Source: Bacteroidales bacterium
GTDB taxonomy: Bacteria; Bacteroidota; Bacteroidia; Bacteroidales; P3
Direction: 5' to 3'
NCBI GenBank assembly: GCA_017479385.1
Contig: JAFVCE010000002.1
Coordinates: 1-64,000 of the forward strand
DNA length: 64,000 nt
Shown here: piece by piece, positions 10,835 to 62,803 of the stretch
Numbering within the stretch: position 1 is the first letter of the stretch
Layout: every line of letters starts with the position of its first letter
The notes under the pieces: generated by a model
What the model was told of the DNA's origin: nothing
Databases searched by the model: none
The model's input: the letters and a program-made list of their open reading frames with translations, nothing else
Translations under genes and position numbers: made by a program

Positions 10835-12676
10835 CTATAACTCCTCGTCGAGGGCATACATATAGCGTCCGGCAGGGCGCAAATCGAGGCTGTAGCCGAG
10901 TGGCCGCGCGCCGGCTTCTGCCCCATCTGGGCAGAACAGAACCACACGCAGGCGGTAGCGTTTCAGGGCGCTACGTCGCTTGACGTTGAGCTGCAGCAGG
11001 TGGGCAACCTCGACAATGGCCGTGCTGTCCGACGTGGCAAAACTTTGTTCGGCGGCCGAAGACTCGCGCCAATCGACGGTTTTGTCGCCCCGCAACAGCT
11101 GCAAGGCCAGCCTCACATCGTTCGAAGCCTCGCTAACGGTGGCCACCTGGAGGGCAGCATGCAACTCTACAAAACGGCTGGTGGTCAGGCTGTCGAGCCT
11201 CGCCTCGAACAACGGCAGCCACGGGCAACCATCCTCCCAACCGCTCACCTCGCCACGAGTCAGCAGGCGAGTACCCCAGCTCGCGGTGTCGGGCCTCGGG
11301 TCGCGGCTAAGGGTCAGGATGTCGGTCGTCGTACACTCCCGTCGCTCCAAGAGGTAGGGGTAGTGTTTGCGCACCGCGCGTAACTGCCTCTCGTCCAGAC
11401 CAGAACAGACAACGAGAGGGTATAGAGAGGGGTTAAGGTCGTATTGAGGTCGAATAAAGTCTGATAATGAGCTACCTACAACATCGCCATAATAGGCCAA
11501 ATGGTCGGGTCTGAGGGCTATGAGGCTCAAGGTTTGCTCGCTGCCGGCAGCAACAACAGCCTCGACCGAGCGCTGAAGGTAGCTTTCGCGGCTCACCTTA
11601 TAGTGTTCGCGGTTCCAAATCAGTGTGGCGGTCATGGCCACTGCCACCGTGGCTAACGCCAGCGCAGCACGTGGCCAGCGGCTCTCGGCCCCCACCATAC
11701 CGCCAATGGCGAGCGGCACAAAGGGCAAGGCAAAGAGCGTTACCGAGGTCTGCAACGTGGGGCTGACCAGTGTAGAATAGGCGTAGCCCACGGCGATGGG
11801 GAGCAACCATAGCGAGGCTGCCAGCGCCATACGCCTGCCCGAGCGTGGCCCGAGGCCCCACATCAGCGCCACGGCGGCGACCAGCGCCGCCGGCACAGCC
11901 CACGAGAAGTGGCACAGGTAGCGCACATATTGCAGCAACCACTCGGGCGTGGGTTTACCGAGCCATTCCAAGCCTTGCAGGTCGAACATCTGGTGCAAGG
12001 TCGACGGCAGGTGTGGCACAAAGGTGACAACAGCGGCCAGGCAGGCAGCGAGGTAGCGCCACAAGGTCTTCGGCTCGCCCTCTACGGCAATTATTATCAA
12101 CCCCGCTATGGCCGTCAGCGCGGCCACGAGGGCGCAGTAGTAGTGGCTGTAGGCACACAGGGCAAGGCCGAGGGCGAGCAGAGCGTAGTGATGCCACGAC
12201 TGTTGCCGCCTCATCACTATGCGGCTCCAAGCTGCGAGGGTGAGCGTTAGGGCAAAGAGGCCGGCAGCATAGGGGCGCGCAAGGCAGGAGTAGTATACGG
12301 CTTGTTGGCTGGTGGCCACGAGCAGGGCGGCCAAGAGGGCGGCTCTGTGGTTCCACCAACTGCGCCCAGCGTCGTAGACCAAGGCCACGGCCGCGGTGCC
12401 CATCACGACGAAGGGCAGGCGCACAACTACCGAGCCGGTGCCCACCAAACGGCACCATAGCCACAAGAAGAGTTGCACGCCGGCTGGGTGTCCATCGTTG
12501 CGCACACCGCCTGCAATGAGGTCGGGCAACGAATCGTAGCCAACGCGGTTCAGGGCACTCAGCTCGTCGAAGGTGAGGGGCGAGGCTGGGAGTGCGGCCG
12601 CGCGCAGCGCGGCCGCAAGCACCACCACAGCCAGCAGTGCCCATCCCTCGTAACAAACTGGCCCTTTCGGTTTCAT
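10835..12676 (-). CDS. GT-C fold membrane glycosyltransferase-like protein
   Basis: This 613-residue protein has about ten hydrophobic segments in its first 360 residues and a soluble C-terminal domain of about 250 residues. The first loop carries LTFDELSALNRVG, with the acidic residues (DE) where polyprenol-phosphate-sugar-dependent GT-C enzymes have their catalytic acid. ALPASPLTFDE and the later DGHPAGVQL block fit the ArnT/PMT (GT39-like) superfamily. It should move a sugar from a lipid carrier on the periplasmic face; the acceptor is unknown. It overlaps the thioesterase gene upstream by 4 bp (ATGA). Bases 11421-11459, encoding RPQYDLNPSLYP, consist of an 11-bp dispersed repeat found elsewhere in intergenic DNA. 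Confidence 0.75.
   Translation of the reverse strand: MKPKGPVCYEGWALLAVVVLAAALRAAALPASPLTFDELSALNRVGYDSLPDLIAGGVRNDGHPAGVQLFLWLWCRLVGTGSVVVRLPFVVMGTAAVALVYDAGRSWWNHRAALLAALLVATSQQAVYYSCLARPYAAGLFALTLTLAAWSRIVMRRQQSWHHYALLALGLALCAYSHYYCALVAALTAIAGLIIIAVEGEPKTLWRYLAACLAAVVTFVPHLPSTLHQMFDLQGLEWLGKPTPEWLLQYVRYLCHFSWAVPAALVAAVALMWGLGPRSGRRMALAASLWLLPIAVGYAYSTLVSPTLQTSVTLFALPFVPLAIGGMVGAESRWPRAALALATVAVAMTATLIWNREHYKVSRESYLQRSVEAVVAAGSEQTLSLIALRPDHLAYYGDVVGSSLSDFIRPQYDLNPSLYPLVVCSGLDERQLRAVRKHYPYLLERRECTTTDILTLSRDPRPDTASWGTRLLTRGEVSGWEDGCPWLPLFEARLDSLTTSRFVELHAALQVATVSEASNDVRLALQLLRGDKTVDWRESSAAEQSFATSDSTAIVEVAHLLQLNVKRRSALKRYRLRVVLFCPDGAEAGARPLGYSLDLRPAGRYMYALDEEL
11421..11459 (+). repeat. 11-bp repeat array inside the glycosyltransferase gene
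   Basis: The plus strand reads AGAGGGGTTAA, GGTCGTATTGA, GGTCGAATAAA in succession, matching the intergenic arrays at 23481 and 30521 almost exactly. It is in frame within the coding sequence and translates on the minus strand as part of QYDLNPSL. Confidence 0.75.
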
Positions 12677-13107: not shown

Positions 13108-14853
13108 CATATTTTTTTCGACATCGTAGCGCAATAAAACAACTTCTTTGTCGTTTTTTTCGAACCTCACTTTGAGCGGCTTGCTGCAGGCCGACGGCAT
13201 ATAGGTCTTATATCCAATACTTATCACCCCCTCGTACTGCCCAGGCTGCAACTTGGCCGGAACAGCCATGTGGCAACTAATCAAGGTCGTGTCGTGGGCC
13301 ACAAGTGTATCGGTCAGCACGCACCGCAGCGATGGCCACGAGCGCTCCGCCCCTTTAACCGAGAGTTGGACCCTAATCGTGTCGCGCTCGGTGCTATAAA
13401 TGTCGTATGGGTAAGGATTTACCACCGCGATTGTGAGGTCAAGGTGGTTCAAACCACTATCTGCCACTTGAGAGCTAACCTCGGCCGGTCCCACCCAGGC
13501 AGCGCGCAGTTCGCGCATAGGCTTGTAATTCTCTATAACGCAGTATCGCAGCGTCTGCCCGTTGGCCAACTCGGCCTTTTGGCACATGGTGTTGGTGAAG
13601 TTGGCCACCAACACCTCGCGCCCTGCAAAGGTGTGGTCGGTGGTGTCGTACTGCCACTGGCTGCCTCGACCAAAGAAGAATGGCGCCGAATAGGCTTCGC
13701 CACCGGTGTATATCATATACTTGGCCGGAGCCGTATAGCTGGCCATGAAGACCACAGGACGGCCGTCGGCCAGGTCGCTTATCTCCTTATAGGCCTTCTC
13801 GTTGTTCCAAATCTGCCCCTTGAGTCCAAACGGGTTGGTAACAGCCAGTACCCTCACGGCAACAAACAAGATGGCACTCGCCACCACAACAACCCTAAAG
13901 TAGCGCCTACTACCTTGCCAGGCCTCGGCATCGGTAACAGCACAAAGTGCTGGCAACACCGCTGGCAATAGCCACTGGGGTTGAGCGTGTCCTCGCAAGG
14001 TCGAGAAGAGAAAGAACACCGGGAACCCCACTCCCACAAACGCCAGGGCGCGACGCAGTGGGTCGGCTGTGGCCATGGGCTTAACGCCACGCCAGTAGTG
14101 CCACAGCCACAGCGGGTTGAAAACCAACAGCAGGTTGAGCAGATACTCCGTAGTGAAACTGAGGTGCCACTCGCGGTTGCGCCCCACAAGGTGGTATGAG
14201 AACGAAACCCAATCGTGGCGCCACTGCCACAACAAGTGTGGCACAAACGCAACGAGAGCCACCGCGCCTGCAACGTAGAGCTGTGGTTTGCGCAGCAGTT
14301 GCAGACGCGACGCCACAGCCAGCACAACCACGAGCAAACCGTGATATTTGCTGTATCCCAACAAGGCTGCCGACAGTCCAAGCAGTATGGTGTTGGCGAC
14401 CGACTGGCGCTGAGCAAACGACTTGAAGGCTGCAAAAAAGAGCACCGACCCGAAGAGCAACGGCGCGTCGGGCGTAGCTATGAATCCGTAGAGCTGCAGC
14501 AGCGGCATCGAGAACGCTGCTGCCACATAGGCCAACGCTGCCCCATAACGAGGCCTTTCGGGCTTTATCAGCAACCAAAAAATATAGAGGTAGGCTGGTT
14601 GCAACAGCGTTGTGAAGAGCCTGACACACAATCCGCTAATTGGCACCCAAAGCGAAAGGCGCACCAGCAGCGCCACCACTGGCGGATGGTCGAAGTAGCC
14701 CCAGTCGAGGTGGTGTGCAAAATACCAGTAGTAGGCCTCGTCGTCGGCCAAACCGGTGAGGGCGGCCTGCAACAGGTTGAGCAACCACCAGGCTGCCAAC
14801 AGCAGTCCAACTGTGGCGTTAGGACTTAAGTTTTTGCTCCAGCTTCTTGACAC
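13105..14853 (-). CDS. ArnT/GT39-like membrane glycosyltransferase
   Basis: This multi-spanning protein carries the GT39/ArnT hallmark in its first loop, [24 protein letters not shown], with the catalytic acidic pair in DDEAYYW. About ten hydrophobic segments follow, then a soluble beta-rich C-terminal domain. It should transfer a sugar from an undecaprenyl-phosphate carrier to an envelope glycan or lipid on the periplasmic side; its position after lpxD suggests lipid A or another surface glycan. No ATG precedes the first membrane segment except one far inside lpxD at 14946. I choose the GTG at 14853 ([18 protein letters not shown] follows), overlapping lpxD by 35 bp, giving 582 residues. The start is an inference. 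Confidence 0.8.
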
Positions 14854-15841
14854 GGTCGACGAGGTTTTCGATGTTGCGCAGATATACCTCGATTTTGCGG
14901 CGACGACGAGCGTCTTCGGCAGGACTGCCGAAGATGGTGGCGCCACTCTCGACCGAATGGGTTACGCCGCTTTGGGCGCCTATGGTAACGTGGTCGCCCA
15001 CCGTGATGTGGCCCACAATGCCGGCTTGGCCAGCCACAATGCAGTGCTCGCCCACCTTGGCGCTGCCGGCAACACCGGCTTGCGAAGCCATGGCGGTATA
15101 TTGTCCCACAACTACGTTGTGGGCAATCTGGCAGAGGTTGTCGAGTTTGACTCCGCGGTGGATGATTGTAGAGCCCATGGTGGCGCGGTCGATGCAGGTG
15201 TTGGCACCTATTTCGACATCGTCTTCGAGCACTACGTTGCCAATTTGGTCAATCTTGTTCCAACCACCCTCCTCGGTGGGTGCAAAGCCGAAGCCATCGG
15301 CTCCAAGCACGGCACCAGAGTGGATAATGCAGCGAGCGCCGACAATGGTATCGCGATAGAGGTTGGCACCGGCATAGACAATGGTGTCGTCGCCAATGCG
15401 ACAACCGTCGCCAATGGTGACGTTGGGGTGTATCTGAACGTTATTGCCAATGTGGCAGCCTCGGCCTATCGAGGCAAAGGGGCCTACATAGCAACCACGA
15501 CCCAATTTGGTGCCACGACCCACATGGCTGCGAAGCGAGCGGCCACGGGGCGGACGGGTCATGTTGTTGTAGAGATGGAGGAGGGTGGCTACCGCCATGT
15601 AGGGGTTATCGACTCGTATTAAGGTCGTATTGAGGTCGTCTTCGGGCTGAAAATCACGGCCTACGATGATGGCCGACGAGCGGTGCTCGTAGATGTAGTG
15701 TGTGTACTTGGGGTTGCCGAGGAAGGTTATGCCGCCCTCGCAACCCTCTTCTATCTTGCAGGGACGGGAGATGATGACATTTTCGTCGCCCTCGACGGTG
15801 CCATGTATCTTTTGTGCTATTTCTTTGACAGTTAGTTGCAT
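14819..15841 (-). CDS. lpxD: UDP-3-O-(3-hydroxyacyl)glucosamine N-acyltransferase
   Basis: LpxD adds the N-linked hydroxyacyl chain during lipid A synthesis in the cytoplasm. The 340-residue protein has the N-terminal uridine-binding domain (through about residue 100, with [13 protein letters not shown]) and a left-handed beta-helix of hexapeptide repeats (for example [20 protein letters not shown]). The catalytic histidine block is [27 protein letters not shown] followed by IAHNVVVG. It ends with a short coiled coil. It follows lptC by 12 bp and overlaps the glycosyltransferase. Bases 15611-15645 encode [10 protein letters not shown] with the 11-bp dispersed repeat sequence, although the RVDNPY motif next to it is normal for the family. 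Confidence 0.96.
15611..15645 (+). repeat. 11-bp repeat-like sequence inside lpxD
   Basis: The plus strand reads ACTCGTATTAA, GGTCGTATTGA, GGTCGTCTTCG. The 20 bp TTAAGGTCGTATTGAGGTCG equals the core of the intergenic arrays. It lies in frame in the N-terminal domain of lpxD. Confidence 0.6.
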
Positions 15842-22818: not shown

Positions 22819-23472
22819 ATGGCCCGAATAGCAATACTCGCCGCAGGCGACTACCCCACCCACCCCACCCCTCTCGCCGCGTTGCGCGAGGCCGACCACA
22901 TTGTGTGCTGCGACAGCGCCTACGCCACCCTCGAAGCCCACGGCCTGCCGCAGGGCTCGGTGGTAGTGGTGGGCGACGGCGACTCGCTGCCACTCGCCCT
23001 GCGCCAGCGCCTCGGCGAGCGCTTTGTGCACATAACAGAGCAGGACTTTAACGACCTGCACAAAGCCGTGGGGTGGGCCGCGGAGCACTATGGCGTGGCT
23101 AACAACACCTACACCATTGTCGGAGCCACCGGTCGCCGCGAAGACCACACCATTGGCAACATAGCCTACCTCGCCACCTTTGCCGACGAGCACACGGGGC
23201 TCGACGTCGCTATGCTGACCAATTACGGGCAATTCAGCCTTGTGCGCGGCAGCCGCACCTTCGCCAGCCAACCAGGACAACAGGTGTCGCTCTTTGCCCT
23301 CGACCCCGAGCAGCCAGTCAGCGCCAGCGGCCTGCAATGGCCCCTATGCCGGCGACGCCTCGGCACCCTCTGGCAGGGCACCCTCAACGCCGCCCTCGGG
23401 CCCCAGTTCACCGTCGAGGGCTACAACCTCTTGGTCTACCAAACCCACGACACAAAAGAGGCTGCTAAATAG
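22819..23472 (+). CDS. thiN: Thiamine pyrophosphokinase
   Basis: The enzyme transfers pyrophosphate from ATP to thiamine, making thiamine diphosphate, the cofactor used for example by the pyruvate oxidoreductase at the left edge. Family motifs are IVCCDSAYATLEAHGLPQ, VVGDGDSL (metal binding), EQDFNDLHKAV and VGATGRREDHTIGNIAYL. The C-terminal domain ends in FTVEGYNLLVYQTH. At 217 residues it is the usual size. It lies 14 bp after the DPP11 gene and is probably cotranscribed. An 11-bp repeat array follows within 10 bp of its stop. Confidence 0.9.
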   Translation: MARIAILAAGDYPTHPTPLAALREADHIVCCDSAYATLEAHGLPQGSVVVVGDGDSLPLALRQRLGERFVHITEQDFNDLHKAVGWAAEHYGVANNTYTIVGATGRREDHTIGNIAYLATFADEHTGLDVAMLTNYGQFSLVRGSRTFASQPGQQVSLFALDPEQPVSASGLQWPLCRRRLGTLWQGTLNAALGPQFTVEGYNLLVYQTHDTKEAAK

Positions 23473-23480
23473 CTCAAAAA

Positions 23481-23557
23481 CAGGGTCAAAGAGGGGTTAA
23501 AGAGGGGTTAAGGTCGTATTGAGGTCGAACAAGCCTTGATAGTCAAGCATTTAGCAG
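23481..23557 (+). repeat. 11-bp repeat array downstream of thiN
   Basis: The plus strand reads AGAGGGGTTAA, AGAGGGGTTAA, GGTCGTATTGA, GGTCGAACAAG, then CCTTGATAGTCAAGCATTTA. The last three blocks recur almost unchanged at 30521-30579. It fills most of the convergent gap between thiN and the ABC transporter gene. Confidence 0.85.
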
Positions 23558-30458: not shown

Positions 30459-30520
30459 TATAATAATTAGCTATCGCGAGGCCTCCTGGTGTGGGGGCCT
30501 GTCGGCACACGCTTCGTGTT

Positions 30521-30579
30521 AGGGAGGGGTTAGGGTCGTATTGAGGTCGAACAAGCATTGATATTCAAGCAGTTAGCAT
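30521..30579 (+). repeat. 11-bp repeat array between gpmA and the tRNA cluster
   Basis: The plus strand reads GGAGGGGTTAG, GGTCGTATTGA, GGTCGAACAAG, CATTGATATTC, then AAGCAGTTAGCA. It is a near copy of the array after thiN (23506-23556), 7 kb away. The rest of the 30384-30680 gap holds the gpmA terminator and no gene. Confidence 0.85.
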
Positions 30580-30679
30580 CCGAGCCAAAGGCGACACCTT
30601 GTGCTGCGCTTGCAGATGGTTGGTAATCAACGACTTGGATTGTTGCGCGTTGTGGTCCGAGAGCTGTTGGTTTGGGTAG

Positions 30680-34032: not shown

Positions 34033-34369
34033 CAAGACAACCAGCGAGTTCGACCAACTGTGGCAACAACGCCTGCAAAGCGCTGCCCAAAGCCGCTGCC
34101 CAATAGACGGCCTCGCTTTGCAACACCACATCGCCACAGCCCAACAGGCCCCTCTGAAGGCAAAAACAGGGGGCCGACGCACCCTGTGGTGGGCCGTGGC
34201 CGCAGCAGCCTGCTTGGCCGCAGTGCTGCTACCTCTACGACACATATTGTTCGGCCACAGCGGCATTCGCACTGTTGAAATCGACGGCCAAGAAATTCAG
34301 TTTGCCTGCAACAACGACTGCTCGCCCGAAGGCACCATTTCAATGCTCAACCAAATAGTGAACAAATGA
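34016..34369 (+). CDS. Candidate membrane anti-sigma factor (cassette 1)
   Basis: The 117-residue protein has a cytoplasmic-looking N-terminal half (MKQNDNKTTSEFDQLWQQRLQSAAQ), one membrane segment (LWWAVAAAACLAAVLLPLRHILF, about residues 57-79) and a short outer domain ending in FACNNDCSPEGTISMLNQIVNK with a CNNDC cysteine pair. I do not recognise a named family. Overlap with the sigma gene and the single membrane span fit an anti-sigma role. The C-terminal Cys-x3-Cys segment is shared with the equivalent protein at 52214, which has CNTQC in the same place. The next gene overlaps it by 4 bp. Confidence 0.7.
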   Translation: MKQNDNKTTSEFDQLWQQRLQSAAQSRCPIDGLALQHHIATAQQAPLKAKTGGRRTLWWAVAAAACLAAVLLPLRHILFGHSGIRTVEIDGQEIQFACNNDCSPEGTISMLNQIVNK

Positions 34370-35067
34370 TGAAAAAAATACTCGCCATACTACTGCCCAC
34401 CCTGCTGCTTGCCTCGTGCCAGCCCAAAAAGTCGGCCTTGCAGCAAGTCTATGACCAATATGCCGACAGCGTCGACCGCGTAACGGTGGCCCTGGTGGGC
34501 AATTATCGGGTCGAGGACAACATCTTCAATGTCATCATGTTGCAAGCACTGAGCGACGACGACTGGCAATGGCTAAAAGAGGAGTTTGGGGTGATACAAA
34601 CCAACAATATGCCCATGCCCTTTGCCAACGAACTGATAGACTACCCAAAGATGCAACTACAATTCATTTCTAACTATGTCGATAGCACAGGCCGGACAGA
34701 AGACCCACTGGCCAACACCGACGAGGGCACCATCGTAACACAATTCCTCAACACGCTGCTGCAAAACATTATTGACATAGACAGCGCCGAGGCTCGGCTG
34801 AACTTCGATAGCATTGTCTGCACCACAGACAGCATCGAGGCAACCATCGACACCACACTCACTCGTCGCTTCTCGCAAATGGCAGCCCAGGAGGGCAAAT
34901 ATGGCTATCTGATTGTAACCCAAGAGCAATACCAGACATTGTGGCTGCTGTTTTTCGACTCGCTCGAAGAGATGCTGGCCATTGCCCGACACCTAATGCG
35001 AAACGACCAGACCCAGTTCATGCTCGCCCCGCAAACCATAGCAGACAGCACCCAAAGCAGACCTTAA
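34366..35067 (+). CDS. Lipoprotein of the sigma cassette (DUF4252-like)
   Basis: The 233-residue protein has a lipoprotein signal with lipobox LLASC. The mature part reads DSVDRVTVALVGNYRVEDNIFNVIMLQALSDDDWQWLKEEFGVI, and the C-terminal half contains YGYLIVTQEQYQTLWLLFFDSLEEM. The pattern is similar to the secreted protein at 52777 and reminds me of DUF4252 proteins, which often accompany ECF sigma genes in Bacteroidota; that assignment is tentative. The end of the gene (ADSTQSRP) and the bases after it consist of an 11-bp repeat array. It overlaps the anti-sigma gene by 4 bp. Confidence 0.65.
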   Translation: MMKKILAILLPTLLLASCQPKKSALQQVYDQYADSVDRVTVALVGNYRVEDNIFNVIMLQALSDDDWQWLKEEFGVIQTNNMPMPFANELIDYPKMQLQFISNYVDSTGRTEDPLANTDEGTIVTQFLNTLLQNIIDIDSAEARLNFDSIVCTTDSIEATIDTTLTRRFSQMAAQEGKYGYLIVTQEQYQTLWLLFFDSLEEMLAIARHLMRNDQTQFMLAPQTIADSTQSRP

Positions 35068-35099
35068 GCAGACCTCAACACGACCCTAACTACCCTAAC
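35041..35099 (-). repeat. 11-bp repeat array across the end of the lipoprotein gene
   Basis: Read on the minus strand the units are GGTCGTGTTGA, GGTCTGCTTAA, GGTCTGCTTTG, GGTGCTGTCTG. The array covers the last 27 bases of the lipoprotein gene and the intergenic space, so the C-terminal residues are repeat-encoded. Confidence 0.7.
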
Positions 35100-38725: not shown

Positions 38726-38811
38726 GTCAGGTCGGGTTAAGGTGCTGTTAACATCGGGTTGAGGTCGGGTTAAGGTGCTGCTAACATCGAGTTGAGGTCG
38801 GTTCAAGGGGA
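38726..38811 (+). repeat. 11-bp repeat array downstream of the first BspA-like gene
   Basis: The plus strand reads GGTCGGGTTAA, GGTGCTGTTAA, CATCGGGTTGA, then GGTCGGGTTAA, GGTGCTGCTAA, CATCGAGTTGA, then GGTCGGTTCAA. Three 11-mers make a 33-bp higher-order unit, the same one as in the coding array at 52502. Confidence 0.9.
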
Positions 38812-38814
38812 ACC

Positions 38815-38852
38815 AGAAAAAATCCCCACCATAGGGCATACGGTGGGGATTT
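38815..38852 (-). terminator. Terminator of the first BspA-like gene
   Basis: On the minus strand AATCCCCACC and GGTGGGGATT pair as a 10-bp stem across an 11-nt loop, followed by a T-run. It is 25 bp past the stop and is repeated at 41258-41293. Confidence 0.85.
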
Positions 38853-38876
38853 ATGGGCGTTATATGTTAATCTGCG

Positions 38877-40826
38877 CTACTTAACCACCACAATGCGGCG
38901 GGCTGGGGCGTTGCCGACCTTGACGAGGTAGGCGCCTGTGGTTGGGATGTCGAAGCGCATGGTGGAATACTCGTCGCGCTTCACAGCCATACGGCGACCC
39001 ACGGCGTCGTATAGAACCACGCTGTTGCCGTCGGCGCCATCGACAACAATCTGACCGTTGTTGCTGTATATCTTGGCATTTATCGCCTCAACTTCGTCCA
39101 CACCAACAACAATGGTGTCGTGCACATATATGGTATCATACAGAGTGATGTAGATGGTATCGGTCTGAGTAAGCCACAGAGTATCGGTGTTGTAAACGAC
39201 TGTGGTGTCGTAGATGGTATTTGTGACGGTGTCGTGAATTTGGGTCGTATCGTGAATTTGGACCGTGTCATGCACAGCAATGCCACCAGCCGAGAAAAGG
39301 GCAGTAATGGTGGTGTCGGAGGTGACGGTAATGGTAAGCGGATTGTCCATGCTGCCGTTGCTCCAGCCGTCGAAGGTGCTGCCGCCGTGAGGTAGTGCAC
39401 TTATCGTAGTCTCGACGCCAAGGAGGTAAATTCCCCCACCAGACACATTGCCGAGTGTAGTATCAGAAGACAAAACGGTCACCTGCCCAATATCTTCAAA
39501 AACCGCTTCTATGACATGGGAAGGTGGAACTGTAATTGTGTCCACATATTCTATATATCCGTATGCCATATAATACCATCTTGTGAGCGAATCAATGTAG
39601 TCCACGTTATCCATATAGAGGTGAGTCAACATCTTCGGCGGAAAGCCAAACTCCAAGTAATTGTTGATAGAAGAGAAAATATAGATGACTGCTCCTTGAC
39701 TTATTAGTACTGCTGTGTCGTTCACTTCATTATAATCATAATGCCCGTTATCAATATCATATATGATATAACCGCCACCGTTGTTGATAATAGTCAAAGT
39801 TGCACAAGTGTCAATAATGTTGTTATATCTCCAGTACTCCGATTCGATGTATGCCGATCCCGAATTGCATGGGACGATTGTCGGTAGGCGGTAGGCAAAG
39901 TCAGGATTGCCAGCTGGAGGAACGCTGCCAAGCATGAAAATGGTGTCCAGCGAAGACCCCCACATACCCCAAGGAGAATCCATATAACTGACAGATGCAG
40001 GAATGATGATGGAAGACAATGGACAATCACTGAATGCATAGAAATCTATGGTGTCGACAGATGCCGGCAGAGTTATATTTGTCAGGCTTGTACAGTCGTC
40101 AAAGGTATACTTTCCAATCACTGTGACAGAGTCGCCAAGAAGCACCGAACTCAAGTTGCTGCAATCCGAGAATGTATTATAACCAGTGTTAGGGCATCTG
40201 ATTATGGCTGAGGTAAGGTCGGTGCAACTAGAAAAAGCGGAAACCATGTGTTTGACAGAATGCGGTATCTCAATTGACTGTATTCCACATTCACCGAATG
40301 CATTTGCTAATATTGAGTCGACTCCGTTTTCAATAGAAACCGATGTGAGTCCACTGCACAATGCAAAAGCACGTTCCCCGATTGAGCTAACGCTACCAGG
40401 AATATTAACTGACTCAAGTTGGTCACATCTTTCGAAAGCCGATAATCCTATGGTGTTGACTCCATCACCTATAGTGACGTTCGTTAACCCCGAACGCGAA
40501 AATGCGTATTGTCCGATGGATAGTATACTGCCTGGAATAACAACAGAACGGAGCTCTGTACACCCATCCAATGCAAAACCTTCTATTGCTGTTACATTGT
40601 AGACAATACCCTCATGAACAACCGTACTGGGTATGACTAAATCCCCTGTGGGACGTTGAGAACTCATCCATCGGTCGTCGGGCCAAGCGACGACTGCATC
40701 AGAACCAGAGATTCTGTAGTACAACGTCTGACCATTGTAAGTGTATGGGAAATCATCTGCAACGGCTTTGTAATTAATTGCCATTGCCAGCAGCATGAGG
40801 GCTGCAAATAATAAATTTTTCTTCAT
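38877..40826 (-). CDS. BspA-like leucine-rich-repeat surface protein with type IX sorting domain (1)
   Basis: The 649-residue protein has a signal peptide (MKKNLLFAALMLLAMAINYKAVA) and about ten BspA-type leucine-rich repeats (for example GCTELRSVVIPGSILSIGQYAFSRSGLTNVTIGDGVNTIGLSAFERC, about residues 75-300). A repeat-like domain of the divergent InlB B kind follows (GSTFDGWSNGSMDNPLTITVTSDTTITALF), then a linker with five HDT/YDT units (QIHDTTQIHDTV...VHDTIVV). It ends with a type IX secretion sorting domain ending VLYDAVGRRMAVKR...GAYLVKVGNAPARRIVVVK. It should be exported to the cell surface and may bind host or food polymers. It is the downstream member of a tandem pair with near-identical flanks. 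Confidence 0.9.
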   Translation of the reverse strand: MKKNLLFAALMLLAMAINYKAVADDFPYTYNGQTLYYRISGSDAVVAWPDDRWMSSQRPTGDLVIPSTVVHEGIVYNVTAIEGFALDGCTELRSVVIPGSILSIGQYAFSRSGLTNVTIGDGVNTIGLSAFERCDQLESVNIPGSVSSIGERAFALCSGLTSVSIENGVDSILANAFGECGIQSIEIPHSVKHMVSAFSSCTDLTSAIIRCPNTGYNTFSDCSNLSSVLLGDSVTVIGKYTFDDCTSLTNITLPASVDTIDFYAFSDCPLSSIIIPASVSYMDSPWGMWGSSLDTIFMLGSVPPAGNPDFAYRLPTIVPCNSGSAYIESEYWRYNNIIDTCATLTIINNGGGYIIYDIDNGHYDYNEVNDTAVLISQGAVIYIFSSINNYLEFGFPPKMLTHLYMDNVDYIDSLTRWYYMAYGYIEYVDTITVPPSHVIEAVFEDIGQVTVLSSDTTLGNVSGGGIYLLGVETTISALPHGGSTFDGWSNGSMDNPLTITVTSDTTITALFSAGGIAVHDTVQIHDTTQIHDTVTNTIYDTTVVYNTDTLWLTQTDTIYITLYDTIYVHDTIVVGVDEVEAINAKIYSNNGQIVVDGADGNSVVLYDAVGRRMAVKRDEYSTMRFDIPTTGAYLVKVGNAPARRIVVVK

Positions 40827-40938
40827 GTTGTTTGTTGTTATTTGTTGAATAATAGGTTCTTTTGCAAAAATCCTGTTTTGTGAGTCTGCTGGTGTTATTT
40901 TTCGAATTTGTTCCACAGCCATATATACTATCTTGTTG

Positions 40939-40969
40939 CAAAAATACGGCATTTTTTTTAAAACCCAAA
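40939..40969 (-). promoter_or_regulatory. Promoter of the first BspA-like gene
   Basis: On the minus strand TTTG (40966-40969) and TATTTTTG (40939-40946) are separated by exactly 19 bp. The leader is about 105 nt. The same promoter stands at 43362-43392. Confidence 0.8.
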
Positions 40970-41082
40970 GCTTTTCGCAACTTTTCTGAATGGGGGGGGT
41001 ATTTTATTTATTTACAACCAATTAGGAAATGTTAATTTTTCTTAACTACCGTGCCTTATCCCCTCCAAAACGCTGAAAAGGG

Positions 41083-41108
41083 GGCCCGAATTTCGCAAAA
41101 TTCGGGCC
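41083..41108. terminator. Hairpin upstream of the first BspA-like promoter
   Basis: GGCCCGAATTT pairs perfectly with AAATTCGGGCC across CGCA. Read on the minus strand it is followed by CCCCTTTTC; read on the plus strand by a T-run at 41119. It may insulate the two transcripts. Confidence 0.6.
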
Positions 41109-41175
41109 TTGACCAATCTTTTTTTCAATGAATATGTTATGATAACCGCCCTCCGCCTACACTCGGGTTTGGAAC

Positions 41176-41253
41176 CAGTCAAGGTCGGGTTAAGGTGCTG
41201 TTAAGGTCGGGTTAAGGTGCTATTAACATCGAGTCAAGGTCGGGACAAGGGGA
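41176..41253 (+). repeat. 11-bp repeat array downstream of the second BspA-like gene
   Basis: The plus strand reads GGTCGGGTTAA, GGTGCTGTTAA, GGTCGGGTTAA, GGTGCTATTAA, CATCGAGTCAA, GGTCGGGACAA. One 33-bp unit has lost its third 11-mer, so copy number changes in 11-bp steps. Confidence 0.9.
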
Positions 41254-41257
41254 AGCA

Positions 41258-41293
41258 GAAAAAATCCCCACCACAGGGCATACGGTGGGGATA
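41258..41293 (-). terminator. Terminator of the second BspA-like gene
   Basis: ATCCCCACC (41264-41272) pairs with GGTGGGGAT (41284-41292), with a T-run following on the minus strand. It is the duplicate of the terminator at 38815. Confidence 0.85.
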
Positions 41294-41317
41294 TGTGGGC
41301 CTATATGTTAATCTGCG

Positions 41318-43249
41318 CTACTTAACCACCACAATGCGGCGGGCGGGAGCGTTGCCGACCTTGACGAGGTAGGCGCCTGTGGCGGGGACATCGAGGGCAA
41401 TTGCTTGGCTGTTTGACTGTTTGATGGCCAAAATACGGCCTGCGGCATCGTAGAGGGTAACAACGTTACCTTCGGCATTCTCGACCACAACACGACCAGA
41501 TTCGGCGTATATCACGGCGCTCGCGAGGTCCACGAGGCCGATACCTGCTGTGGTGTCGTTAACCTCGAAGTAGGCGGTGAAGGTTGTGTCGGAGGTGACG
41601 ACCACCGTGCGCTCGGCATTGGTGTCGTTGTCGTTCCAACGCAGGAAGTGGTAGCCCTCGTTGGCAATGGCACGTATGGTGACCGTGTCACCCTCTTCCA
41701 CTATGGCCGAGGCTACTCCGTTGACGACGACTCTACCCATTGCCGGGTCGGCGCTTTCGAGCGTAATGGTGTAATAAACCACCTCGCCACCGCAGGGGTC
41801 GATGATGTTATGGCAGGCGCTCCAGCCAGCGGCATGACGGTAGGCGTAACCAGCATTGCAGGGAACCACTATGGGGACATCAACAAGCGATGTGTCGTGA
41901 ACCCAAAGCGTGTCGCCCGTGGTCTCATCTATATTAGTCCACCATCCTTCATTGGTTTCATACATTGGAGGCACACTGCCCAGCATTCGCAGAGTGTCGA
42001 GACCGCACTCTAAAAAAACTTGCGCACCTAAGTAAGCCAGCGAGGCAGGCAAGGCGACCTCTGTAAGTCCCGAACAATAGGCAAAAGCGCCCCCCAGAAT
42101 GGTGTCTAACGTCGATGGCAAGTCGATAGATGTAAGCCCAGTGCAGGAATTGAACGCATTGCCATATATCATTGCCAATCCTTCGGGCATGACTACTTGC
42201 GTGAGTCCTTCATGCCAAAGGAATGCACCGAAGCCGATAGTATCCACGCTGGCGGGCAGAGTGACACTGGTCTGTTCATAGTCGCACGCGGTGATTGTCC
42301 TTTTGCTTTGGTTGCGATACACAACATTGTTTTCAATATACCCATTCAGTGTTCTTGCGCCCCAGGCTCCAACACCGTATGTGTTGTTCGAATCAATCAA
42401 CGAACCTGTGTAGCTGATGTTTTTCACGAACTGGAACGTCGTGCTGGCTGGGAATTCTGTCCACCTATAAGAGTAATCCGTGAATTGCACCGTGGAAGGG
42501 ACGTTGATTGAAGTGGTTTTATAGCATCTCAAGAAAGCTCCACCCTCAATTGTGGTTACACTGCTCGGAATGGAGACTGTACCCTCCAGGTTAGTGCATA
42601 GTGCAAAGGCCAAACCGCCGATAGTGGTAACTGTTGACGGCCAAGTGATAGAGGAGATGCTCGTCCCGGCGAAAGCATGGTCTGAAATAGTGGTCACGCC
42701 CTCGGGAATCGTGATGTTCCCACTCAGTTGGGTGCAACCAGAGAATGTAAATGGAGCAATGGCGTTGTCAACAAATGTAATGCTTGTACCACCAAACGGA
42801 TATTCGAGATTGACTGTAGACAAGGTGTTGGGCATGGTCACAGAAGTGATACTACTGCAGTAATAGAACGCATATTCCCCGATTACCCTCACCGTGTTGG
42901 GAATAACCACAGAAGTCAAGCCAGTGCAGTTGTCAAAAGCATAGCTTTGGATACCTCTAACAGGGATGCTGTCGTCGTAACCGGATGGATTTAGAATACT
43001 GTCAGGAATAATCAAATCGCCTATCGGCATTTCATAGTCTCCCCAAGAACTACCTCCAGAGGAAACGTTCCCCGGATGAACCAGTATGGCCACAAGCTCA
43101 CGCTCACCACTTTGTTGGTCATAGACTACCCGATAATAGAGTGTCTGCCCACTGGGAGCCTCTGCCGAGCAGTCATAATTCTGCGCTCTGACGCCCTGGG
43201 TCAGGCCTGCCAGCAGCACGAGGGCTGCAAATAATAATTTTTTCTTCAT
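41318..43249 (-). CDS. BspA-like leucine-rich-repeat surface protein with type IX sorting domain (2)
   Basis: The 643-residue protein has a signal peptide (MKKKLLFAALVLLAGLTQGVRAQ) and BspA-type leucine-rich repeats (CTGLTSVVIPNTVRVIGEYAFYYCSSITSVTMPNTL and similar, about residues 95-450). A divergent InlB B-type repeat follows (YTITLESADPAMGRVVVNG...GYHFLRWNDNDTNAERTVVVTSDTTFTAYFE), then a type IX sorting domain ending AYLVKVGNAPARRIVVVK. The last 15 residues match those of the neighbour at 38877 exactly. It lacks that neighbour's HDT-repeat linker. It should be secreted and attached to the cell surface. Promoter and terminator are copies of the neighbour's, so the pair arose by tandem duplication with a diverging centre. 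Confidence 0.9.
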   Translation of the reverse strand: MKKKLLFAALVLLAGLTQGVRAQNYDCSAEAPSGQTLYYRVVYDQQSGERELVAILVHPGNVSSGGSSWGDYEMPIGDLIIPDSILNPSGYDDSIPVRGIQSYAFDNCTGLTSVVIPNTVRVIGEYAFYYCSSITSVTMPNTLSTVNLEYPFGGTSITFVDNAIAPFTFSGCTQLSGNITIPEGVTTISDHAFAGTSISSITWPSTVTTIGGLAFALCTNLEGTVSIPSSVTTIEGGAFLRCYKTTSINVPSTVQFTDYSYRWTEFPASTTFQFVKNISYTGSLIDSNNTYGVGAWGARTLNGYIENNVVYRNQSKRTITACDYEQTSVTLPASVDTIGFGAFLWHEGLTQVVMPEGLAMIYGNAFNSCTGLTSIDLPSTLDTILGGAFAYCSGLTEVALPASLAYLGAQVFLECGLDTLRMLGSVPPMYETNEGWWTNIDETTGDTLWVHDTSLVDVPIVVPCNAGYAYRHAAGWSACHNIIDPCGGEVVYYTITLESADPAMGRVVVNGVASAIVEEGDTVTIRAIANEGYHFLRWNDNDTNAERTVVVTSDTTFTAYFEVNDTTAGIGLVDLASAVIYAESGRVVVENAEGNVVTLYDAAGRILAIKQSNSQAIALDVPATGAYLVKVGNAPARRIVVVK

Positions 43250-43361
43250 GTTGTTTGTTGTTATTTGTTGAATAAGAGGTTCTTTTGCAAAAATCCTGTT
43301 TTGTGAGTCTGCTGGTGTTATTTTTCGAATTTGTTCCACAGCCATATATACTATCTTGTTG

Positions 43362-43392
43362 CAAAAATACGGCATTTTTTTTAAAACCCAAA
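43362..43392 (-). promoter_or_regulatory. Promoter of the second BspA-like gene
   Basis: On the minus strand TTTG (43389-43392) and TATTTTTG (43362-43369) are separated by exactly 19 bp, as in the duplicate upstream of the first gene. Confidence 0.8.
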
Positions 43393-47046: not shown

Positions 47047-47228
47047 CCACCAGGCAACCACCCGGCAGCACCTCCCCCACACCACCCCACAGTCCACCAC
47101 AATAGGCAGGACAAGAATAGCCCTTTGCACCGCCCAAGCACCACAAAACCAGCGGCCTAAGCACCATTGTAACCCCACTAGACGCCGCTCAAACACCGAA
47201 ACGTAACCGCCTCAACATCAAGGCCTAT

Positions 47229-47270
47229 TCGACCTCAACACGACCCTAACCCCTCCTTAACCCCTCCGAA
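47229..47270 (-). repeat. 11-bp repeat array between the PAS-like and barrel genes
   Basis: Read on the minus strand the units are GGAGGGGTTAA, GGAGGGGTTAG, GGTCGTGTTGA, GGTCGAAT. The rest of the 47047-47453 gap holds a promoter at 47427 and no gene. Confidence 0.8.
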
Positions 47271-50295: not shown

Positions 50296-51252
50296 ATGTA
50301 TACCCCACCATTCACAGTAACCGAAGAAATAATGTCGTTTGTTGCCGACATAGCCGAAATGGTCGGACACCTCTCGGCCACAACCGACCAACTGCCAACT
50401 CCTCGCCTGCGAAAAGAGAACCGCATTAAAACCATACAATCTTCGCTGGCCATAGAGAACAATTCGCTGTCGATAGACCAAGTTACAGCCATCTTGGAAG
50501 GCAAACGGGTTCTTGGTGCCCCCAACGAAATTCAGGAGGTAAAAAACGCAATCGAAGCCTACGAACTACTGTTAGAACTGAACCCATACAAAGAAAAAGA
50601 CTTACTGAAAGCGCACCGCTTGATGATGACCGACCTCGTGAACGAAAACGGTCGCTACCGCAATGGCGGCGTTGGAGTGTTCGACGGGGAGAAGTGCGTA
50701 CACATGGCGCCTCCACCCATGCGTGTGCCAATGCTGATGGCCGACCTGCTCGGGTGGGTAAAACAAACCAAAACTCACCCTCTTATCAGCAGTTGTGTGT
50801 TCCACTACGAGTTCGAATTCATACATCCATTTGCCGACGGCAACGGGCGCATGGGGCGTATGTGGCAAACCCTCCTCCTAATGCAGTGGAAACCCATATT
50901 TGCTTGGATACCAGTCGAAACCATAGTCAAAGAGCACCAACATGAATACTATGCTGCCATAGCACGCAGCGACAGCGAAGCCTCGAGCACCGCCTTCATC
51001 ACATTCATGCTCCAATGCCTTAAGCAGGCGCTGGCAGAAATGGCAGAAAGTAACCAAAAAAGTAACCAAAAAAGTAACCAAAAAATCCTCTCTGCTATGA
51101 AGAAAAATCCAACCGTCACTATCCGCGAACTACAAGAAGAAACTGGACTTTCGGAGAGTGGTGTGAAGAAAATCATACGCCAACTCAAAGCCGAAGGCCA
51201 AATACAGCGCATAGGCGGCACCAAAGGTGGCCGCTGGGAATGCACAGAATAA
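50296..51252 (+). CDS. Fic family protein with C-terminal winged helix
   Basis: Fic enzymes usually transfer AMP (or a similar group) to a hydroxyl on a target protein. The active-site motif HPFADGNGRMGR is intact at residues 177-188. The self-inhibiting helix motif [S/T]xxxE[G/N] is present before it as SLAIEN (Ser50, Glu54), a class II arrangement that should keep the enzyme off until released. The C-terminus (about residues 260-318) is a winged helix (TIRELQEETGLSESGVKKIIRQLKAEGQIQRIG), suggesting DNA binding or self-regulation. Between them is a threefold SNQK repeat encoded by 12-bp units. It lies in front of a small nuclease-fold protein and the second sigma cassette. Confidence 0.92.
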   Translation: MYTPPFTVTEEIMSFVADIAEMVGHLSATTDQLPTPRLRKENRIKTIQSSLAIENNSLSIDQVTAILEGKRVLGAPNEIQEVKNAIEAYELLLELNPYKEKDLLKAHRLMMTDLVNENGRYRNGGVGVFDGEKCVHMAPPPMRVPMLMADLLGWVKQTKTHPLISSCVFHYEFEFIHPFADGNGRMGRMWQTLLLMQWKPIFAWIPVETIVKEHQHEYYAAIARSDSEASSTAFITFMLQCLKQALAEMAESNQKSNQKSNQKILSAMKKNPTVTIRELQEETGLSESGVKKIIRQLKAEGQIQRIGGTKGGRWECTE

Positions 51253-51306: not shown

Positions 51307-51750
51307 ATGCCCCAGATTCCAGACCCAGTGCGCCGACGCCGTGTGGCGCTCACCCCCGAGGAGGAGGTTCGCCAAGCCGTCATCGCCACCCTCCACAGCC
51401 GCTACGGCTACCCGCTGGAGCTGATGCAGGTCGAGGGGCAAATAGCCCTCAACGGCATGGCGCGGCGGTGCGACATAGTGGTCTATGCCCCAGGGCTGAG
51501 GCCGGCCATGATTGTGGAATGCAAACGCCCGCAAGTGACGCTCACACAGAGAGTTGCCGACCAAGCCTGCCGCTACAACCTCGCCCTCGGAGTGCCCTAC
51601 CTGCTACTCACCAACGGCCGCCAAACCCTCTGCCTCGCCACCGACCCCGTAGCAGCCACCCTCACCCCACTGGCCGCGCTCCCTTCGTGGGACGAACTGG
51701 TGGCACAAATGTTAAAAAATGAGCCGCCACGGCCCACCTCGCCGTCATAA
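51307..51750 (+). CDS. Small protein with HsdR N-terminal nuclease-like domain
   Basis: The 147-residue protein matches the type I restriction enzyme R N-terminal domain (HSDR_N_2 type) seen as a stand-alone protein in Bacteroidota. It has LTPEEEVRQAVIATLHSRYGYPLELMQVEGQI followed by the PD-(D/E)xK-like core RRCDIVVYAPGLRPAMIVECKRP, with Asp and the ExK pair in place. No helicase or specificity subunit is nearby, so it is not part of a complete restriction system. It lies 54 bp after the Fic gene and 8 bp before the sigma gene. Its role is unknown. Confidence 0.82.
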   Translation: MPQIPDPVRRRRVALTPEEEVRQAVIATLHSRYGYPLELMQVEGQIALNGMARRCDIVVYAPGLRPAMIVECKRPQVTLTQRVADQACRYNLALGVPYLLLTNGRQTLCLATDPVAATLTPLAALPSWDELVAQMLKNEPPRPTSPS

Positions 51751-51758
51751 ACACACCT

Positions 51759-52217
51759 ATGAGCGAGCAACAACGCCTCAAACCAATAACCGACAACTAC
51801 TTGGAACTCTACAGCCGAGCCATGGCCATAGTGCGCGACCACGACGACGCCTGCGACGCCCTCCAAGAAGCCATAGCCTCCACACTCACACGCCTCGGCC
51901 ACGTGCGCGACCCCTACCTCTACTGCCTCCGCTCGCTCCGCAACAACTGCATCAACACCCTGCGGCGACGCAAAAGGAACGCCCCTCTGGCCGAAATCCA
52001 GTCGCTCGCCGCCGACCTGCCCAACGAACAAGCCCGCGAGGCTTGGGCCGCCAAAGAACAACTGCCCGAAACCCAACGCGCGCTGATGATTCTGCACGAC
52101 ATAGACGGATACACACTGCCCGAACTCGCCGCCCTCACCGGCACCTCCATCTCCACCGTCAAACGCACCATAGCACAAGCCCACCAAACTCTCAAACAAA
52201 AACTCGAACAACCATGA
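51759..52217 (+). CDS. ECF-type RNA polymerase sigma factor (cassette 2)
   Basis: The 152-residue protein has sigma region 2 (YLELYSRAMAIVRDHDDACDALQEAIASTLTRLGHV) and region 4 (LPETQRALMILHDIDGYTLPELAALTGTSISTVKRTIAQAHQTLKQKL). It should guide RNA polymerase to a small gene set. Its stop overlaps the next start by 4 bp (ATGA). The order sigma, membrane protein, secreted protein repeats that of cassette 1 at 33547-35067. Confidence 0.9.
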   Translation: MSEQQRLKPITDNYLELYSRAMAIVRDHDDACDALQEAIASTLTRLGHVRDPYLYCLRSLRNNCINTLRRRKRNAPLAEIQSLAADLPNEQAREAWAAKEQLPETQRALMILHDIDGYTLPELAALTGTSISTVKRTIAQAHQTLKQKLEQP

Positions 52218-52798
52218 ACCGCGACAACCTACTCGAACACTACCGCAGCGGCCAGCTCGACGCCGACCAAGCCGAGCAACTGGCCCAAGCTGCCGGGCGC
52301 GACCAAGTGCTGGCCCGCGCTCGCCAAGTCGCCCACCGCCGCCAAACACGCCTCGGCCTCGGCGCCGGCCTTGCCGTAACCGCCATCGTGGCAGCCACGC
52401 TCCTCATACACCCCGCAGCCCAGGGCCCCACCCAACTCGCCCCATCGGCCGTAGGCCCACAGACAGCCATCAACCTCGGCCCCTCGCAACCCACCCAGCA
52501 GTCGGGTCAAGGTCGGGTTGAGGTGCTGTCAACATCGGGTCAAGGTCGGGTTGAGGTGCTATCAACATCGGGTCAAGGTCGGGTTAAGGTGCTATCAACA
52601 TCGGGTCAAGGTCGGGTCAAGGTGCTGTCAACATCGACTGCCGAAGCCCCCCAAGCCCAACCCAGCCTCGCCCCAACACCAGGCCAACCCCAACCCATAC
52701 CGCTCCACAATCCCGGTGTGGAGACCCGCGTAGTATGCAACACCCAATGCAATGCCGACTCTGTAATCAACGAAATATGGAACTTCCTCGACACCTAA
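52214..52798 (+). CDS. Candidate membrane anti-sigma factor with embedded 11-residue repeats (cassette 2)
   Basis: The 194-residue protein has a cytoplasmic N-terminus (MNRDNLLEHYRSGQLDADQAEQLAQAAGRD), one membrane segment (LGLGAGLAVTAIVAATLLIHPA, about residues 47-68), and a linker with four 11-residue repeats (SGQGRVEVLST and SGQGRVKVLST) encoded by the 33-bp form of the dispersed repeat. It ends in VETRVVCNTQCNADSVINEIWNFLDT. The C-terminal Cys-x3-Cys segment parallels the protein at 34016. I infer an anti-sigma role from position and topology. The end overlaps the next gene by 22 bp. Confidence 0.7.
   Translation: MNRDNLLEHYRSGQLDADQAEQLAQAAGRDQVLARARQVAHRRQTRLGLGAGLAVTAIVAATLLIHPAAQGPTQLAPSAVGPQTAINLGPSQPTQQSGQGRVEVLSTSGQGRVEVLSTSGQGRVKVLSTSGQGRVKVLSTSTAEAPQAQPSLAPTPGQPQPIPLHNPGVETRVVCNTQCNADSVINEIWNFLDT
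52502..52640 (+). repeat. Four 33-bp (3 x 11 bp) tandem repeats inside a coding sequence
   Basis: Units at 52502-52534, 52535-52567, 52568-52600 and 52601-52633 each consist of TCGGGTCAAGG, TCGGGTTGAGG and TGCTGTCAACA with small changes. They match the intergenic arrays at 38726 and 41176 and stay in frame. Confidence 0.95.
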
Positions 52799-53259
52799 CC
52801 CTCCTCATCGCACTCACAGTCAGCCTACTGCCCATCGGCGCCAAGGCCCAAGAGGGGCTCTATAGCCTCTTTGCCAACCAGCCCGAAGTGCGCGTGGCGC
52901 AGGTCGACAACTTCCAACTCGACTCTAACACCGCCGTTGGCGTGCTCCTGCTCGAAGCCACCTCCGACCACGGCTGGCGCCAACTGCGACGACAACTGGC
53001 CATTGGCGACCTCGCTCCCGAACAACAACGCGACCTCATGGCTGGCACCGACATCGTACTCTTTGCCCAACGCAACCGTCTCGACCCCAGCCAACCGCCA
53101 CCCCTCGACGGCGAGAACCTCGACCCGTCGGGAAGCTGCTACCTCGGCATATCCTACCTCAGCCGAACCATCCTCATCTTCACCCCCTCCACGCCCGAAC
53201 AAACCGAGGCCGTGGTCGCCACCCTCATGCGCAAAATGCTCCGTTCGCCCCGACCCTGA
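52777..53259 (+). CDS. Secreted protein of the second sigma cassette (DUF4252-like)
   Basis: The 160-residue protein has a signal peptide (MELPRHLTLLIALTVSLLPIGAKAQ) and no lipobox. Its body, VRVAQVDNFQLDSNTAVGVLLLEATSDHGWRQLRRQLAI followed by SGSCYLGISYLSRTILIFTPSTPEQTEAVVATLMRKML, parallels the lipoprotein at 34366 (DNIFNVIMLQALSDDDWQWL). I call it DUF4252-like tentatively. The ATG at 52777 overlaps the preceding gene. The last codons (RSPRP) lie in a decayed 11-bp repeat. Confidence 0.65.
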   Translation: MELPRHLTLLIALTVSLLPIGAKAQEGLYSLFANQPEVRVAQVDNFQLDSNTAVGVLLLEATSDHGWRQLRRQLAIGDLAPEQQRDLMAGTDIVLFAQRNRLDPSQPPPLDGENLDPSGSCYLGISYLSRTILIFTPSTPEQTEAVVATLMRKMLRSPRP

Positions 53260-62755: not shown

Positions 62756-62803
62756 CGAGGTCGGGTCAACATCGGGTTAACGTCGTATCAACATCGAACA
62801 CCC
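62756..62803 (+). repeat. 11-bp repeat array between rpsT and mrdA
   Basis: The plus strand reads GGTCGGGTCAA, CATCGGGTTAA, CGTCGTATCAA, CATCGAACACC. The rest of the 62669-62977 gap is C/A-rich and holds no gene that I can see. Confidence 0.8.

Follow-up and report, generated by a model that had tools for sequence, protein, structure and literature searches.

Several described repeat systems resemble, each in part, the arrays of tandem 11-bp units analyzed here in a Bacteroidales genome (2.28 Mb, 24 contigs), a number of which lie in the window, i.e., the whole stretch of DNA presented above (the initial 64 kb of contig C16). BrickBuilt, a minisatellite MITE of Porphyromonas gingivalis, is similar, as described in PMC4596501, in being an intergenic feature of Bacteroidales, namely a small repeat element that contains tandem units and whose leader and tail have inverted ends, but differs in its 23-nt unit (AGAYCATARTATCCTCTCRTRTG) and its 19 copies in one strain; an assignment to BrickBuilt was rejected because the unit here is 11 bp and, as compared by eye, of different sequence. 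REP/REPIN elements, as portrayed in PMC3116915, share hundreds of extragenic copies, genome-specific words and the inverted hairpin pairs seen in congeners, whereas tandem 11-bp units, even spacing and, in this genome, direct arrays set our repeats apart. Membership in the REPIN/RAYT system was likewise rejected, as no Y1_Tnp was found in this genome, the Y1 genes of congeners are not flanked by the arrays and hairpins accompany just 2 of 93 arrays. The TAACTGA heptamer repeats (169 sets per genome, also in five Bacteroidetes, according to PMC4679880) are short intergenic direct repeats as well, but with a 7-bp unit, a single word across distant lineages and, in the main genome studied there, a location mostly just upstream of start codons; the period of 11 in our arrays rules out their inclusion in this group. 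The parC locus of plasmid R1, in the account of PMC9426499, also consists of 11-bp direct repeats, with repeat sequence and ParR specificity varying by family, but it is one plasmid centromere as opposed to a dispersed chromosomal set. ParR of R1 requires at least two 11-bp repeats (PMC9426499), which means that reading of DNA in 11-bp repeats exists in nature. Direct repeats of 11 bp, as in ParR/parC-type systems, are present here, and a Pfam search of 16 window proteins revealed neither ParM nor ParR. The AA/TT periodicity of E. coli, as reported in PMC516772, has a period near 11 bp and is intergenic, but is a bias in the dinucleotide statistics of numerous intergenic regions rather than exact words at discrete sites. 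A search of mostly open literature yielded no description of 11-bp arrays with a genome-specific word at even spacing. DNA uptake sequence dialects reportedly also consist of repeated words that vary between related species, as the arrays do; these dialects are single short words, unlike the 11-bp arrays analyzed here.

Arrays were detected by a phased two-unit score with a cut-off of 23 or 25, chosen against a reversed-sequence control (a looser initial scan was discarded, as reversed sequence yielded as many arrays as the real one). Application of this score to 798 kb, or 35% of the genome (the window, contigs C5 and C1, and C3 from 100 kb onward), yielded 98 arrays vs. 2 in reversed sequence at a score of at least 23 and 93 vs. 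0 at a score of at least 25; the five arrays scoring 23–25, all on C5, did not enter the counts of junctions, codons and hairpins. All ten strong arrays of the original prediction were recovered at a score of at least 25, at which reversed sequence gave none. Its two weak loci were not supported: that at 53246 matched (centre 53255) at a threshold of 21 only, where the control is also high (115 real vs. 26 reversed matches over the 798 kb), and that at 55690 gave no match even at this threshold. The suggestion that the 11-mer should exceed expectation across the genome was borne out for tandem-phased units and failed for single 11-mers in the window, of which 89 were counted at up to 2 mismatches vs. 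80 ± 9.4 in shuffled sequence (18 of 100 shuffles reach 89). The signal lies in the tandem phasing. Across the whole genome, two consecutive copies of GGTCGGGTTRA (up to 3 mismatches) gave 126 overlapping matches, and GGTCGTATTRANNTCG (up to 1 mismatch) gave 290, vs. 0 in both cases for the pattern read backwards.

The window arrays occupy diverse positions. Two three-unit arrays lie inside genes, at 11426..11458 (plus strand, score 30.0) in the gene 10835-12676 (minus strand; PMT_2 (glycosyltransferase-like) domain, Pfam PF13231) and at 15612..15644 (plus, 28.3) in lpxD (14819-15841, minus; LpxD by Pfam). The main family of elements, family I, is represented at 23466..23557 (plus; scored array from 23490), in the convergent junction between the thiamin pyrophosphokinase and ABC transporter genes (assigned by Pfam), where a degenerate left end is followed by two copies of AGAGGGGTTAA, then GGTCGTATTGA, GGTCGAACAAG and the right palindrome CTTGATAGTCAAG. 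It is also present at 30512..30580 (plus), with a histidine phosphatase gene (plus) on one side and tRNA genes (minus) on the other; the flank that these two elements were predicted to have in common is indeed shared. A short array (35064..35085, minus, 27.0) marks the 3' end of ORF 34366-35067, for which Pfam gave no match. The array at 38730..38806 (plus), built of a 33-bp higher-order unit, and its kin at 41172..41248 (plus), from which one 11-mer is missing as originally noticed, lie 3' of the BspA-type LRR genes 38877-40952 (minus) and 41318-43375 (minus), respectively; given their common downstream flank, they are not independent. A family I-like array (47224..47267, minus, 29.7) and a three-unit array (62759..62791, plus, ~0.5 kb downstream of tRNA-Glu) occupy tandem junctions according to our own gene caller. 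The same caller places twelve units, or four 33-bp repeats, at 52500..52639 (plus) in intergenic DNA; these repeats can be read in frame within ORF 51719-52798 (~360 aa; no Pfam match). At the gathering threshold, Rfam detected four tRNAs and nothing else in the window.

The general form of the unit is GGTCGKRTTRA, with variants GGAGGGGTTAA, GGTGCTGTTAA and CATCGGGTTGA, and copy number varies among arrays in 11-bp steps. An alignment of 50 copies of family I has a left end resembling GTAACTGCCTGAAAATCAGGG, then 3–4 units and, on the right, an end resembling CCTTGATATTCAAGCAGTTAGC; left and right are approximate inverted copies of each other, each with a palindrome in its consensus, and conservation peaks in the core and declines gradually outward. 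Other families have the common core with different flanks and lack the right end. Higher-order units of 33 bp are found at 38730, 41172 and 52500; outside the window, several matches lie at C1:115633 (33 bp) and at C3:98146 (44 bp), and C14 contributes one single higher-order match. The anticipated 11-bp autocorrelation is present, with a best period of 11.0, and reaches weakly into the flanks: averaged over 86 arrays, A+T content is phased at 11.0 bp from 60 to 200 bp to the left and right of the core (on each side, none of 500 shifted placements was as strong), a pattern to which the units of longer arrays may contribute. With arrays omitted, noncoding flanks still display lag-11 self-similarity in this genome (z 4.5) and in congener G087 (z 3.4), and hardly in congener G083 (z 1.1), as opposed to other intergenic DNA of the same three genomes, which has no lag-11 excess (z 0.4, −1.0 and −1.4, respectively). 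If B-DNA makes a turn in 10.5 bp, a fixed step of 11.0 bp would drift off one helical face over 200 bp, so that head-to-tail protein footprints are a better match than the original proposal of sites presented on a single face of the DNA.

Placement of the arrays relative to genes is strongly biased in this genome. With junctions defined by our own gene-calling script, the 93 arrays occupy 44 of 58 convergent junctions over the 798 kb, as opposed to 29 of 443 tandem ones and 5 of 60 divergent ones, and 12 arrays overlap called genes; where both neighbours have a protein match, the respective fractions are 7/7, 2/99 and 0/8. The expected location at gene 3' ends or in convergent gaps holds in this genome as a strong convergent bias, with two window arrays (11426 and 15612) inside genes, and it does not extend to two congeners, in which the arrays occupy divergent or tandem junctions: 10/22 divergent, 15/205 tandem and 0/22 convergent in G087, and 9/16, 12/153 and 2/17 in G083 (convergent gaps of at least 150 bp: 0/5 and 2/8). 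Among junctions with a protein match on both sides, pooled over these two genomes, 1 of 6 convergent, 10 of 123 tandem and 4 of 7 divergent ones carry an array.

Spacing of the arrays is more even than this placement would give. Its mean is 8.5 kb on both C5 and C3 and 8.6 kb on C1; the window averages 5.7 kb. On C5, the longest contig, the coefficient of variation is 0.36 vs. 0.84 ± 0.11 under a null matched for junction type, and there are no array pairs closer than 3 kb where 7.3 are expected. Matched-null placements as even as the observed one numbered 0 of 3000 on C5; for C1, C3 and the window, the corresponding fractions were 0.042, 0.017 and 0.019. The shortage of pairs under 3 kb does not reach significance on C3 (2 vs. 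4.3) or in the window (1 vs. 2.5). Among junctions of at least 150 bp, only 0–7% of those that carry an array have a further one less than 4 kb away, compared with 62–73% of those that carry none. Operon layout may account for part of this evenness. The two congeners, in stretches picked on contigs with word matches, have mean spacings of 11.7 kb (G087) and 10.7 kb (G083), again even when compared with uniform placement (coefficients of variation 0.52 vs. 0.84, p 0.002, and 0.56 vs. 0.86, p 0.004). As for strand bias, which the original prediction had suggested examining, 33 arrays agree with the sign of local GC skew and 60 oppose it (binomial p 0.007), a count on which we do not rely because the skew flips sign along contigs.

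Comparison with relatives showed that words differ between genomes while the period is shared. The named relatives retrieved by LpxD are uncultured Bacteroidales, largely from rumen and gut; LpxD identity is 70–72% for the nearest genomes, which are thus too distant for an empty-site comparison, and 58% for Candidatus Colimorpha merdihippi. Two copies of GGTCGGGTTRA gave 1–2 matches in 3 of 60 relatives, similar to the backwards control, and matches to the family I core number 143 in this genome vs. 4 in total across 3 of 119 congeners. Different 11-bp words are found in three congeners, where overlapping matches number 152, 298 and 310. The pattern of G083, GTTCTTCAATN, accounts for 152 in G083 itself and 298 in G087, as well as 17 in G086, 9 in this genome (all within a foreign part of C3) and none in G084 or G085; the G087 word, GTTCTTCAGTA, differs from it by a single base. 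Two copies of ATCAACGATAT give 310 overlapping matches in G084, 2 in G087 and none in the four remaining genomes. Words are thus near-identical between some congeners and unrelated between others, and the period stays 11 across the unrelated words of this genome, G084 and G083/G087. By eye, G087 and G083 contain about three word families each. In the DNA around LpxD, near relatives have 24 period-11 arrays over 442 kb (at 17 of 22 loci), more distant relatives have 8 over 545 kb (at 7 of 29 loci) and other taxa have 1 over 482 kb (at 1 of 29 loci). The junction upstream of the lpxD operon carries an array, mostly with a differing word, in 9 of the 17 near relatives that have this junction (of 22 loci), compared with 11 of 53 other gaps of at least 150 bp (Fisher p 0.015), which supports conservation of array position at this site. 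Such conservation is not general, as any period-11 array is in reach of the thiamin pyrophosphokinase gene at just 4 of 29 congener loci, counted irrespective of the genes on either side.

Additional evidence was provided by arrays inside genes, with the comparison to homologs covering the three for which usable homologs are available. The lpxD array is ungapped relative to all 36 aligned relatives' loci and retains TLIRVDNPY, and the codons used there include rare ones, TTA making up 3% of Leu codons and CGA 8% of Arg codons; the coding array at C5:223061 is likewise ungapped relative to 2 homologs. The array at C1:115638 represents an insertion of ~20 residues relative to 11 homologs.

Taken together, a step that stays the same where words differ, the evenness of spacing, the phasing of flanks and the insertion-free genic arrays point to a functional site read by a protein. 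We tentatively favor, without regarding it as probable, the interpretation of these arrays as chromosome-wide landing sites for a putative DNA-binding protein that would contact DNA in 11-bp steps; in this respect, the original idea of repeated protein sites remains the best reading, apart from its one-face geometry. One array per ~8–12 kb, usually at a transcription-unit border, would then perhaps partition the chromosome into topological or nucleoid domains, and the specificity of the putative protein, and hence the word, would shift between species or species groups at a constant 11-bp step. What we infer from these patterns is that such a protein exists and binds the arrays, that these play a role in domains and that word and protein co-evolve. 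Several observations argue against this interpretation: the junction types in congeners differ from those of this genome, so that one shared function is not obvious; the perfect or near-perfect congener hairpins look more like mobile palindromes; flank phasing in G083 is weak; array position is not generally conserved; and the C1:115638 array is an insertion.

The main rival, which we consider possible but rather unlikely, holds that the arrays originated as REPIN- or MITE-like, non-autonomous mobile elements that spread by self-copying within each genome and survive mainly between operons, with purging or target immunity generating the even spacing. Their intergenic location, and words with hundreds of matches limited to a few genomes, are compatible with mobility, as are the near-identical palindromic array copies of G087 and the insertion at C1:115638. 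An inverted 12-mer is present in 16 of 29 arrays of G087 and 8 of 32 of G083, and an inverted 14-mer within 60 bp of the array in 11 of 24 cases among near relatives, vs. 2 of 93 in this genome. The inverted ends of family I, of the TAACTGCYTGAWWWTCARG type, would also suit a mobile element; this motif has 68 matches near arrays and 12 away from them vs. 2 in reversed sequence (798 kb), so that some lone ends may exist. On the other hand, a source of mobility is not apparent from Y1_Tnp (PF01797), which has no match in this genome and 3, 4, 4, 1 and 1 in five congeners (RAYT or other Y1); of these 12 congener loci a period-11 array is in reach of 2, in both cases ~1.1 kb away and, by our own estimate, no more often than array density gives. 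Furthermore, REP doublets of Pseudomonas fluorescens are described in PMC3116915 as random in extragenic space, whereas the arrays here are even, and the lpxD and C5:223061 arrays entail no insertion. Overall, the congener hairpins, near-identical copies, the C1:115638 insertion, possible lone ends and junction differences fit a mobile origin, and a mixed history, in which elements of mobile origin were later used as sites, is possible.

An alternative at the RNA level, according to which transcribed arrays or hairpins end or insulate transcription at the borders of transcription units, appears improbable. It would agree with the occupancy of convergent junctions in this genome, with the arrays upstream of the lpxD operon as compared with just 1 of 140 junctions inside it, and with the very stable single-strand folds of the four congener hairpins that were folded (z −9 to −20). 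However, window arrays fold with z values of only 0.2 to −2.7 (−3.6 for one that includes a separate terminator-like hairpin), congener arrays are often in divergent junctions and some arrays overlap genes. Even less credible are neutral minisatellites arising by slippage in unconstrained intergenic DNA, with conversion spreading the words: copy changes in 11-bp steps, the intergenic preference and the abundance of heptad arrays in the genus are in their favor, but slippage alone fails to account for one word at ~90 sites in 798 kb, for even spacing and for a shared period, and the genic arrays run counter to codon bias (in 11 of 12 coding arrays, codon use is poorer than the average of the gene). 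Self-recognition signals for DNA uptake, comparable to the uptake sequences of Neisseria and Haemophilus, are very unlikely, since, despite genome-specific words with hundreds of matches and frequent inverted pairs in congeners, about one array per 8–12 kb is sparse for such signals, whose words are single short motifs.

Returning to the landing-site interpretation, its boldest extension would be a clade of rumen Bacteroidales with a chromosome-organising code, i.e., a dedicated putative protein, 11-bp steps, one site per 8–12 kb and words rewritten between genomes, a scenario that we regard as doubtful. If true, it would constitute a bacterial parallel to fast-evolving centromere repeats, with step length and spacing kept. 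The usual explanations for repeats dispersed through bacterial genomes are selfish DNA and local signals; as unit length and spacing (~8–12 kb in three genomes) are kept while the word differs, the two views can be separated by comparison. If the arrays do bind a protein, chromosome domains of uncultured bacteria could be read directly from their sequence.

A few minor observations concern individual loci. The pair of BspA-type LRR genes (window 38730-43375) is accompanied by similar downstream arrays and a AATCCCCACC...GGTGGGGAT hairpin, and the sequence downstream of an array near C3:98146 resembles that of these two arrays. The 33-bp repeats at 52500 read as an 11-residue repeat that resembles the peptide inserted at C1:115638. 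A perfect 12-bp tandem repeat, AAAGTAACCAAA (3.2 copies), is located at 51047-51085 of the window, within ORF 50296-51252. Tandem arrays of 7 bp (GAATTAG, TTTCAAC, etc.) are common across the genus, some of them inside thiamin pyrophosphokinase genes (one example, L311, is read in frame); noncoding arrays of this genome include 3 of period 7 vs. 40 of period 11. One exact copy of the family I core was found in a congener (G101:C34:1298), perhaps on a misbinned contig.

The arrays also have a bearing on assembly. Several contigs of G084 (C44, C51, C61, etc.) begin within hairpin arrays, suggesting that arrays may break assemblies. In the genome under study, the portion of C3 from 1 to ~98000 has 48% G+C and other 11-bp words in place of GGTCG arrays, and a comparison of 1500 bases, C3:41001-42500, gave 100% identity with genome G102. 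Judging from its sequence, C3 is probably a chimera of two species, and C3:1-99999 was excluded from genome statistics as DNA of another species. The 11-bp word thus serves as a barcode, the change of which along a contig flagged a chimeric assembly.
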